Shown here: positions 637 through 11,278 of the stretch, piece by piece
Position numbering within the stretch: position 1 is the first letter of the stretch
How the letters are laid out: the number at the start of each line of letters is the position of its first letter
Assembly: GCA_004374725.1 (NCBI GenBank)
Contig: SOKK01000060.1
Span: forward strand, 1 to 11,278
Direction of reading: 5' to 3'
DNA: 11,278 nt
DNA from: Patescibacteria group bacterium
Lineage (GTDB): Bacteria > Patescibacteriota > SOKK01
The notes under the pieces: model-generated
What the model saw: only the letters and a program-made list of their open reading frames with translations
Told to the model about the DNA's origin: nothing
The model's database searches: none
Position numbers and translations under genes: made by a program

Positions 637-1242
637 ATGTCAAAACCAAGTTTTATTCATGAACTAAAACTAATCAAGCAATTTTCCTTACCGGGGAGAG
701 CTATTCTGGTAATAGCCGGGGTAGTTCTTCTTTTAGGTGGAGGAATCGGAGGTTATTTGGCAGGAGAAAGTGCGGCTAGTACTAGTAGTGCTAACTCTGA
801 AAAAGATAGTAACCTAGCGACAAAAAACTATCAGTTGAAGTTTGAAGGTTTAGAGGAAGAGGAGGTAAAAGGCGAAGCGAGCGAGGGATTGAAATTAACT
901 TATCGCGGTGAAGAGATTGAAGGTTCAGAAATAGAACTTTCACCCAAAGAAGGATCCAAGAAAATTAACCTTCAGATTGTTTTAGGGAGTGAGAAATTAA
1001 ATTTAATCTTGCCTTTGTTCAGTGCTCCGAAGGTTGTTGCAACTACTAATAGCAATAGTACAGGAAGTTCAGAAGCAACCAAAACCACTGGCAAGTATGT
1101 TGCTAGTAAAAGCGGCGGGAAATATCATCTCCTGGACTGCCGCTATGCCAAAAAGATGAAAGAAGAGAATAAGATTTGGTATGGGTCCAAAGAAGAAGCT
1201 GAAGCGGATGGCAAGGATTCGTGTGGGGTTTGTAAACCCTAA
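637..1242 (+). CDS. Membrane-anchored protein with Ada-like zinc-binding C-terminal domain
   Basis: This 201-residue protein starts at an ATG six bases after AAGGAG (625-630), a clear start choice. A short basic N-terminus leads into one hydrophobic segment at about residues 21-42, a signal anchor, so the rest is probably extracytoplasmic. Residues 60-130 look like a small beta-rich region, followed by a Ser/Thr/Asn-rich linker (about 134-151). The C-terminus has YVASKSGGKYHLLDC, then KEENKIWYGSKEEAEADG, then CGVC. Cys168, Cys196 and Cys199, with His164 as a possible fourth ligand, match the metal-binding module related to the N-terminal zinc domain of Ada. In such anchored proteins the module occurs alone, without the methyltransferase domain, and its role is not established. 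No enzymatic function can be assigned. The gene converges on the next one, with a shared terminator between them. Confidence 0.85.
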   Translation: MSKPSFIHELKLIKQFSLPGRAILVIAGVVLLLGGGIGGYLAGESAASTSSANSEKDSNLATKNYQLKFEGLEEEEVKGEASEGLKLTYRGEEIEGSEIELSPKEGSKKINLQIVLGSEKLNLILPLFSAPKVVATTNSNSTGSSEATKTTGKYVASKSGGKYHLLDCRYAKKMKEENKIWYGSKEEAEADGKDSCGVCKP

Positions 1243-1302: not shown

Positions 1303-1827
1303 TCACTTCTTGTGAAGACTGGGGGGAAGCAATGCCGGTTTAATCCTAAGCTCTTTTACGAAGTTACAAAAATGGAGACGGGTATTAACTGCAAGGAAAG
1401 ATTTACCGAGGTCGGTTTGGGGGTTGGTTTTGAGAAGAGTTTCTACCTCTTTGCTCCCAGCAAAGATTTCGACGTCGTTTTGCTGAAAGTGGAAGATTAG
1501 CGGTTGCCATTCATGATCACGCCTTGCTTCGGTGATCGTCTCTCCCAGAATCGCCAGTTCTCCTTGGACTCGGACTTCTCCCCGTGAGATAGGAGGATCG
1601 CCATAGCAGTCGGTGGGAATAACTAATTCCCAGGGACGATATTTTCCTTCCAGTTCCCCATGGCACCTAATGTAAGCTTTCCTTTGGGGAATCTGGCCGA
1701 AGTAAGTGTTAGTAGTGTCCCCGTAGTTAGTTCGGTACTTGCTGAAGATGACGAAAAGCTCACCGTCTGGTGCTGAGTTGAGCTTTTCTGCAAGAGCTAG
1801 GATTCTTTCTTGATCCTCTTTATCCAT
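1303..1827 (-). CDS. Uncharacterised 174-residue protein
   Basis: I do not recognise this family. The frame starts at ATG 1827 behind AAGGCGGTGA, one base off the full anti-Shine-Dalgarno complement, with GGCGG seven bases upstream, so the start is well supported. No signal peptide or membrane segment is visible, so it is probably cytoplasmic. The N-terminus (MDKEDQERILALAEKLNSAP) looks like an amphipathic helix. The middle is Trp/Tyr/Gly-rich with alternating polar and hydrophobic stretches (YIRCHGELEGKYRPWELVIP, then RGEVRVQGELAILG), which suggests a beta-barrel or OB-like fold, but that is only a guess. The end is basic and proline-containing (LLPPSLHKK). Three Cys residues are scattered, with no metal-binding pair. 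It has its own extended -10 promoter about 57 bases upstream and a terminator, so it is a monocistronic unit. By eye it is somewhat more GC-rich than the replication genes. Confidence 0.75.
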   Translation of the reverse strand: MDKEDQERILALAEKLNSAPDGELFVIFSKYRTNYGDTTNTYFGQIPQRKAYIRCHGELEGKYRPWELVIPTDCYGDPPISRGEVRVQGELAILGETITEARRDHEWQPLIFHFQQNDVEIFAGSKEVETLLKTNPQTDLGKSFLAVNTRLHFCNFVKELRIKPALLPPSLHKK

Positions 1828-5862: not shown

Positions 5863-5890
5863 TACCTGTACCCTGTAACCTGTGATCTAT
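5863..5890 (+). repeat. Short 7-base tandem repeat between lemA and the next gene
   Basis: Three consecutive units TACCTGT, ACCCTGT, AACCTGT (5863-5883) are followed by a degenerate GATCTAT. The period and the ACCT core recall the repeat at 561-588. The next gene's start lies directly after it and lacks a Shine-Dalgarno sequence. Confidence 0.5.
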
Positions 5891-5893
5891 CTA

Positions 5894-10275
<4,382 letters not shown>

Positions 10276-10290
10276 GTAAGATTCAAAACT

Positions 10291-10318
10291 AAAAAACTGA
10301 CCCTAGGGCCGGTTTTTT
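10291..10318 (+). terminator. Intrinsic terminator of ligA
   Basis: ACTGACC and GGCCGGT form a short stem (one A-C mismatch, one T-G wobble) around CTAG, flanked by six A's on the left and six T's on the right (10313-10318). It begins 15 bases after the ligA stop codon, closing the plus-strand gene run. Confidence 0.78.
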
Positions 10319-10326
10319 AATTAGCA

Positions 10327-10354
10327 AAGAAAAAGGGTCGCCTGAGGCGACCCT
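10327..10354 (-). terminator. Intrinsic terminator of the 310-nt RNA
   Basis: AGGGTCGCC (10334-10342) and GGCGACCCT (10346-10354) make a perfect nine-pair stem with a three-base loop. On the minus strand it runs straight into TTTTT, then C and TTT. The plus-strand side has no T-run, which fixes the direction. Confidence 0.85.
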
Positions 10355-10640
10355 GTGTGGATTGAAAGCTGACGAGCGACTGGTTTTTGAATCTTTACGT
10401 TCCGATCCCCGGAGGTAGGGGAAACAGAGAGGTCGCTCGTCAGCACTTGTTTGTTATGCGGCGGGAGCGCCAAAAGGAGCTCCCGTCATAGATAGGGACA
10501 TGGAGGGAGGGAGAACCTCGTTTATTAAAGGACCAGAAGGCCGCTTATTTCCTTTCCCTGGGAAATCGTTCCCCAGGGAAGCTCCTAATAAAGGAGGGAG
10601 ATACGGGTGAAGCTGTCGTTACCACACTAAAGAGCGTCCT
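10327..10640 (-). ncRNA. Unclassified structured noncoding RNA, about 310 nt
   Basis: No credible reading frame covers this stretch, yet on the minus strand it is bounded by a strong promoter and a clean terminator. Predicted helices (plus-strand coordinates): a stem joining the two ends, GTGTGG 10355-10360 with CCACAC 10622-10627; a perfect 13-pair helix 10368-10380 with 10432-10444, enclosing a CCCC/GGGG hairpin (10407-10410, 10418-10421); a hairpin 10462-10468 with 10479-10485; a nine-pair hairpin 10554-10562 with 10572-10580; a five-pair hairpin 10582-10586 with 10592-10596. TTTATTA (10521-10527) can alternatively pair with 10586-10592. The shape is a multibranched RNA closed by an end-to-end stem. 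I looked for RNase P RNA, tmRNA, SRP and 6S signatures and found none. One caution: unpaired parts are pyrimidine-rich on the minus strand, while structured RNAs usually have purine-rich loops, so the opposite strand deserves a test. Confidence 0.68.
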
Positions 10641-10646
10641 GCTTTT

Positions 10647-10674
10647 ATTTTACCCCTTTGTTTTTCTTTGTCAA
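10647..10674 (-). promoter_or_regulatory. Strong promoter of the 310-nt RNA
   Basis: Minus strand: consensus -35 TTGACA (10674-10669), 16-base spacer, -10 TAAAAT (10652-10647). It predicts a transcript start near 10640. It is the closest match to a housekeeping-sigma consensus in the window, which suggests abundant, constitutive transcription. The -35 overlaps the T-rich tail of the terminator of the upstream membrane-protein gene. Confidence 0.82.
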
Positions 10675-10702
10675 ATAAAAGGCTGACCTTTGACGGTCAG
10701 CC
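10671..10702 (-). terminator. Intrinsic terminator overlapping the end of the membrane-protein gene
   Basis: GGCTGACC (10681-10688) and GGTCAGCC (10695-10702) form a perfect eight-pair stem with a six-base loop. On the minus strand it is followed by TTTTATTT. The distal arm contains the gene's TGA stop (10697-10699), so the stem overlaps the coding end. Confidence 0.82.
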
Positions 10703-11203
10703 GGTATTGGAGATATCAACACATTCCGCGACTAGTCGCATTTGTATTTCCTTAATTATCACGATTCTATTGAGGACGCTGGCTATTCCCAGCAGTAGAC
10801 CAGCGATGATAAAGACGGATGTAATATGCGGTGGAGGTAATTGAGATTTTATCATGCACATCCCTATGAGGAAAGAGGTGTTTCCCGCCCAAATAATCGG
10901 TTGGAGATGGTAGTGTCCGTCTGGCCTCCCGAATAACATGATCCCATATACAAGTGTGAAGAGATAGAAGGTTCCCATTATCACGCATGAGACTGCCGGG
11001 AGGGAAAGTAGATAATAAGTAATAAGGTTAAGGGTATATATCAGTGTGAAGGGTAATGCACATATTCTTAGGATGCGGGCTAGTTCCTGGAAAGTAGGGA
11101 GTACCCGGTATTGCCAAGCGTCTTCGAATGAAATTGAGGAGGTTTCTCCTTGAGAACGGAGAAGATTTCTACTTTCTTGAGGGAAAAAGGTTCCAGCGCT
11201 CAT
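10697..11203 (-). CDS. Uncharacterised four-helix membrane protein
   Basis: A 168-residue protein of no family I recognise. The start is ATG 11203, eight bases after AAGGAG (11217-11212). A polar N-terminus of about 45 residues (SQGETSSISFEDAWQYRVLP) has no signal peptide character. It is followed by four hydrophobic segments at about 46-67, 70-92, 101-118 and 127-146, and a short mixed tail (KEIQMRLVAECVDISNTG). The loop FGRPDGHYHLQP between helices 2 and 3 has two His and an Asp close together. This could be a metal or substrate site, but nothing proves it. There is no catalytic or transport signature. It is a separate transcription unit with its own terminator, followed on the same strand by the structured RNA gene. 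By eye its composition is a little more GC-rich than the replication genes. Confidence 0.75.
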   Translation of the reverse strand: MSAGTFFPQESRNLLRSQGETSSISFEDAWQYRVLPTFQELARILRICALPFTLIYTLNLITYYLLSLPAVSCVIMGTFYLFTLVYGIMLFGRPDGHYHLQPIIWAGNTSFLIGMCMIKSQLPPPHITSVFIIAGLLLGIASVLNRIVIIKEIQMRLVAECVDISNTG

Positions 11204-11243
11204 CGTTTCTTCTCCTTATGTTGTCTTATTTTGACTCTATTTT

Positions 11244-11269
11244 AAAAGGGCAATCACTTTGTGATTCCC
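11244..11269 (-). terminator. Possible terminator or operator-like hairpin upstream of the membrane-protein gene
   Basis: GGG (11248-11250) plus AATCAC (11252-11257), then TTT, then GTGATT and CCC (11261-11269) form a nine-pair hairpin with one bulged C. On the minus strand it is followed by TTTTAAA, consistent with ending a gene that lies beyond the right edge. The symmetric AATCAC/GTGATT core could equally be a regulator site. A short TAAAAT just downstream may serve as a -10 for the membrane-protein gene, without a good -35. Confidence 0.45.
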
Positions 11270-11278
11270 TCCTTGTTT

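Follow-up and report, generated by a model that had tools for sequence, protein, structure and literature searches.

A candidate orphan small RNA gene with its own promoter and terminator downstream of ligA in a Patescibacteria genome

The minus strand of the window (the whole 11,278-nt stretch of DNA analyzed) is read here, from ∼10640 to 10327, as a stand-alone gene, with its own sigma-70-type promoter and terminator, for a noncoding RNA with a stable fold that would act by antisense pairing through C-rich segments; the rough probability assigned to this reading as a whole is 0.36, and a minus-strand transcript of ∼314 nt is itself probably real. The locus looks like a real, uncatalogued, orphan gene for a stand-alone small RNA, and its sequence is new; its kind is ordinary unless expression and relatives show more. 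Small RNAs in bacteria of this kind seem little described; among the matches listed for literature on noncoding or structured RNA in this bacterial group, no title concerned such an RNA, although one may still have been reported. In these bacteria, a stand-alone RNA with an RNase P-like promoter would constitute a concrete candidate post-transcriptional regulator; for now it is a single orphan locus, with no relatives found, proposed from sequence.

Genomic setting and predicted transcription unit

The source assembly comprises 488 kb in 108 contigs, with an estimated completeness of 78%. Pfam identified dnaX, dnaB, a LemA gene, and ligA in the window, and three reading frames had no Pfam match (5882-8101, plus strand, 739 aa; 637-1242, plus strand, 201 aa; 1303-1827, minus strand, 174 aa). 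The DNA-repair gene ligA lies on the plus strand with its 3′ end at 10275. In the collection of named genomes, the four LigA proteins nearest to its product, labeled Patescibacteria, Falkowbacteria, “bacterium,” and “Euryarchaeota archaeon,” share 43-46% identity with it at their best segments, and the host is therefore probably one of the Patescibacteria. Within the ligA reading frame, a GC-rich stretch at 9805-9842 with the inverted repeat CTCGCC/GGCGAG, noted by eye, is perhaps a small repeat element inserted in frame. Beyond ligA, a near-symmetrical hairpin between an A-run and a T-run (10293-10320), also noted by eye and absent from the terminator scan list, could serve as a terminator for transcription from both sides.

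The RNA locus is placed between ligA and a minus-strand ORF of 168 aa (10697-11203). The start of this ORF is preceded by AAGGAG and it has its own terminator downstream; it matched only itself in a search of 5.77 billion proteins (124 candidates scored), had no Pfam match, and had no relative in viral contigs. Listed ORFs of at least 50 aa touch the RNA stretch in just two cases, a 50-aa frame on the minus strand (10473-10321) and the edge of a 58-aa frame on the plus strand (from 10668). The predicted features, all on the minus strand and given in the direction of transcription, are as follows.

10681-10702, minus strand: terminator hairpin of the upstream 168-aa ORF, 8 pairs with a T-rich tail, between that ORF and the RNA promoter
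10669-10674, minus strand: −35 element TTGACA, matching 11 of 12 consensus positions jointly with the −10 element, spacing 16
10647-10652, minus strand: −10 element TAAAAT from the promoter scan, spacing 16 to the −35 element
10327-10640, minus strand: predicted noncoding transcript of ∼314 nt, from promoter, terminator, folding, and shuffles
10622-10627, minus strand: 5′ arm GUGUGG of closing stem P1, partner 10355-10360, pair probability 0.92
10597-10621, minus strand: linker L1, with CUCCC at its end; L1 plus the 5′ arm of hairpin A resembles an anti-Shine-Dalgarno sequence
10582-10596, minus strand: hairpin A, CUCCU/AGGAG, 5 pairs, pair probability 0.97
10554-10580, minus strand: hairpin B, 9 perfect pairs plus inner pairs, pair probability 0.96
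10531-10542, minus strand: hairpin C, 4 pairs, one of them G-U, pair probability 0.94
10485-10530, minus strand: long linker L3, containing UCUCCCUCCCUCC
10463-10484, minus strand: hairpin D, loop region CUCCUUUUGG, pair probability 1.00
10368-10444, minus strand: long hairpin E, 13 perfect pairs and a 51-nt loop region, pair probability 0.96
10355-10360, minus strand: 3′ arm CCACAC of closing stem P1, partner 10622-10627
10326-10354, minus strand: intrinsic terminator, 9-pair hairpin 10354-10334 plus T-run, pair probability 0.98

A preliminary description of this DNA had named a promoter of the form TTGACA-16-TAAAAT and a perfect nine-pair terminator with a T-run, and both were recovered on the minus strand, the promoter at 10674-10647 and the terminator hairpin at 10354-10334, with seven G-C pairs among its nine, a 3-base loop, and a T-rich tail. 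The start of the transcript near 10640 was inferred from the distance to the −10 element. The promoter follows directly after the terminator of the upstream ORF (10702-10681) on the same strand. When 10276-10696 was shuffled with dinucleotide composition preserved, using thresholds chosen after the site had been seen, a promoter and a terminator in order on one strand appeared in 0 of 3,000 shuffles, a promoter of such quality alone in 3 of 1,000, and a terminator alone in 65 of 1,000. The order of the two signals and the shuffles thus support the earlier claim that the locus is a noncoding, stand-alone unit of transcription. Four promoter-like sites in 60,326 bases of the genome (55,079 readable) agreed with the consensus at 11 or more of 12 positions, and of these the present locus alone was followed by a terminator at a distance of 150-450 nt.

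Elsewhere in the genome, the RNase P gene is preceded by TTGACT-17-TAAAAT (10 of 12 matches), which ends 8 nt before its 5′ end and resembles the RNA promoter in form. A promoter form common to the stable RNAs of this genome was considered and rejected as not general, the tmRNA having no promoter-like site of at least eight matches within 100 bases upstream.

Folding and choice of strand

Seven helices (P1, A, B, C, D, E, and the terminator) were predicted on the minus strand, each with a mean pair probability between 0.92 and 1.00. The perfect 13-pair inner helix described earlier was confirmed within hairpin E, where 10444-10432 pairs with 10380-10368, and a perfect inverted repeat of at least 13 was obtained in 0 of 200 shuffles; the three or more further hairpins of that description are present as A, B, C, and D. 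The stem said to join the two ends is likewise present as P1, but a 6-pair stem of this kind is by itself not above chance, being found in 362 of 2,000 shuffles. The minimum energy of the 307-nt piece on the minus strand had a z-score of −6.2, with 0 of 100 shuffles as good. In a folding survey of noncoding windows (39 windows on 19 segments of 16 readable contigs; 11 of 27 sources read N), one window on the locus ranked second of 39 by its better strand (−7.3 on the plus strand, −6.8 on the minus strand), beside windows on the RNase P RNA and tmRNA, and a second, overlapping window (10423-10699) had z-scores of only −2.8 and −3.2.

The plus strand, which the first reading of the DNA had not considered, folds better than the minus strand, both as a whole (z −8.0 vs. 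−6.2) and without the terminator hairpin (z −6.6 vs. −4.5). With the main helices held fixed and two null models applied, only the plus strand did better than shuffles (z −2.2 and −2.1); the remainder of the minus strand folded no better than its shuffles (z −0.17 and +0.05). Two sets of 200 shuffles produced a difference between the strands as large as the observed one at rates of 0.5% and 0%. A functional RNA on the plus strand, with the minus-strand promoter and terminator being fortuitous or belonging to an antisense partner, would account for these values, and the known RNAs of the genome mostly fold better on their true strand: the RNase P RNA did so (−9.8 vs. −8.5), likewise in its three survey windows, as did the tmRNA in three of four overlapping survey windows. 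The top tmRNA window, however, favored the wrong strand (−6.5 true, −7.0 other), as did the window's tRNA-Leu (−3.1 on the true strand, −3.6 on the other), and folding is thus a strand guide that is right more often than wrong on the known RNAs of this genome, but fallible. Moreover, a scan of 9600-11278 found no promoter-like site on the plus strand before 10987 and no terminator-like site before 11143, and a plus-strand gene is considered unlikely. The promoter and the terminator point to the minus strand, which is taken as the one transcribed, and the better folding of the plus strand is left standing as an oddity.

Known RNA families and search for relatives

Covariance models of Rfam 15 were searched against the window and, with lax filters, against a 361-base piece, the family gathering score serving as the criterion; no family reached or exceeded that score at the locus, and none matched at a meaningful level. 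The best match on the piece was BASRCI337 on the plus strand (10320-10358), with 22.9 bits where the cut-off is 229 (E 0.0011); in the window search it scored 22.1 bits (E 0.061, 10216-10358). It was set aside as a plus-strand match at a tenth of the cut-off that, on the piece, covers just the terminator hairpin and its A-rich flank. The hallmarks of RNase P RNA, tmRNA, SRP RNA, and 6S RNA had been reported missing from the outset; in the present searches the models of RNase P RNA, tmRNA (looked for by RF00023 and a tRNA-like end), and SRP RNA had no match at the locus, and the weak matches on the piece included no 6S RNA. The RNase P RNA and tmRNA (RF00023) have genes above the cut-off elsewhere in the genome, on contigs C62 (221 bits) and C107 (172 bits), respectively, and the RNA locus therefore replaces neither. 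RNase P RNAs of circularised Candidate Phyla Radiation genomes can diverge so far that score thresholds needed lowering (PMC8172020), an explanation that does not apply here because this genome has a clear RNase P RNA.

The RNA may instead have a structural or scaffold role, restricted to this lineage, and form an RNP with a protein, like 6S RNA, Ms1, or SRP RNA, its shape rather than its C-rich linkers being functional. This alternative, which is possible but doubtful, is consistent with a folding stability that places the RNA beside the host's own RNase P RNA and tmRNA, with several perfect helices, and with a closing stem of pair probability 0.92. A search of the genome for the small SRP RNA (RF00169) gave no match at E values up to 10, which would also fit, but this absence is a weak point that says little in an assembly that is 78% complete and contains stretches of N. 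Further against a scaffold, the eight weak Rfam matches that the piece by itself gave at E up to 10 included no 6S or SRP family, the minus strand outside the main helices folds like shuffled sequence, as described above, and no convincing homologues were found.

The search for homologues covered several ranks. For genus, family, and class, the collection searched by blastn contained only the genome itself at each rank. Among 379 genomes of the phylum (own genome included), nine others gave blastn matches of 19-34 bases (E 5.6e-4 to 0.008), which were judged to be due to chance, the loci being compared by blastn and nhmmer only. Three structure models (R1-R3) were each built from two copies of one sequence and hence had low sensitivity; the two minus-strand models, R1 and R2, run on 192 relatives including the own genome, gave best other matches at E 0.41 and 0.079, and the plus-strand model, R3, run on 379 genomes, found only the own genome at E up to 0.5. 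A LigA-led search of genome contigs yielded eight loci at 34-46% identity, and those examined held no nucleotide relative over the inclusion threshold. At one of them (L012), another ORF comes next downstream of ligA, judged by eye, and Rfam searches of loci L011-L014 returned one tRNA and nothing else. The pattern of helix E matched three viral contigs, which were discounted, their loops looking unrelated by eye.

Because searches across the phylum, in up to 379 genomes, yielded no convincing homologue, the label of an abundant housekeeping RNA given in the preliminary description is unsupported. Its alternative wording, a new or lineage-restricted structured RNA, holds as far as the Rfam searches reach and in that the RNA appears, by sequence comparison, to be confined to its lineage. 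The palindromes, several of them perfect and free of G-U pairs, in a single copy with no relatives, might also represent an element acting at the level of DNA (a cruciform, a protein-binding site, or a mobile-element remnant) with no functional RNA. However, a search of the own genome gave one match, the locus itself, phage records gave just 37-base matches at E 0.3 (four records), plasmids gave none, and such an element leaves the ordered promoter and terminator unexplained; it is accordingly regarded as improbable.

C-rich segments, possible targets, and comparison with known systems

Five motifs were tried, among which UCCC (8 observed vs. 3.6 expected, p 0.004) and CCUCC (4 observed vs. 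1.3 expected, p 0.03) were enriched and UCUCC was not (p 0.36). Two of the CCUCC sites are predicted to be mostly open (1.00 and 0.67) and two mostly paired (0.32 and 0.17 open). When five stretches of the RNA were compared with 51 ATG start regions, linker L1 together with the 5′ arm of hairpin A paired better than its shuffled versions (p 0.025); it is one of two overlapping stretches with p 0.025 and 0.045, the others having p 0.16, 0.245, and 0.74. This pairing test has little power, because the generic 16S tail used as a positive control reached only p 0.095; the 16S rRNA, wanted for the genome's own tail in the anti-Shine-Dalgarno test, was not found in this genome. Shine-Dalgarno-like motifs were present in 14 of the 51 start regions vs. 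799 of 5,000 random readable places (16%) and are thus only mildly enriched at starts, which counts somewhat against the mechanism proposed next.

Under the proposed mechanism, the perfect hairpins would shield the RNA and display its C-rich stretches, which would lie exposed in linkers L1 and L3 as well as the D and E loops. These stretches could pair with the G-rich ribosome-binding sites of mRNAs, and translation initiation would thereby be blocked. Such a regulatory RNA, pairing through C-rich stretches with ribosome-binding sites, is put forward tentatively; antisense action is plausible and the target test only marginal. Alternatively, a structured RNA confined to this lineage, for which the collection searched contains no other genome of the class, might expose several copies of an anti-Shine-Dalgarno sequence like the 16S tail and act broadly on ribosome loading, slowing the initiation of translation in general in this small-genome bacterium instead of at a single mRNA; this is considered very unlikely.

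The best guess, by analogy, remains a lineage-specific C-rich antisense sRNA like LhrC, sX13, or RNAIII, and the own promoter and terminator that mark this kind of sRNA were both found here. RNAIII is a large RNA with many hairpins that also encodes a peptide. The predicted RNA resembles it in being C-rich and large with many hairpins; the peptide of RNAIII and the lack of an Rfam match here set the two apart. In Staphylococcus aureus, C-rich stem-loops of RNAIII bind ribosome-binding sites (PMC3771888). The sX13 RNA of Xanthomonas, likened to RNAIII by its authors, directs C-rich loops against G-rich mRNA motifs near start codons and is Hfq-independent (PMC3771888). Stable stems with C-rich loops are predicted here as well; however, sX13 as described in that source has three stems, much of the C-rich sequence here lies in linkers, and no homology between them was found. 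In LhrC of Listeria, CUCCC motifs in loops and in a single-stranded stretch bind lapB upstream of its start codon (PMC4132741). The likeness to the LhrC family, as far as it is described there, lies in several CUCCC or UCCC stretches, here predicted in loops or single-stranded parts, and in the terminator hairpin, but the RNA here is ∼314 nt long, has more hairpins, and lacks both an Rfam match and a relative. Finally, the host's own RNase P RNA and tmRNA are both encoded elsewhere; the RNA of this locus matches neither model, but its folding stability is in the same range and its promoter is similar to that of RNase P.
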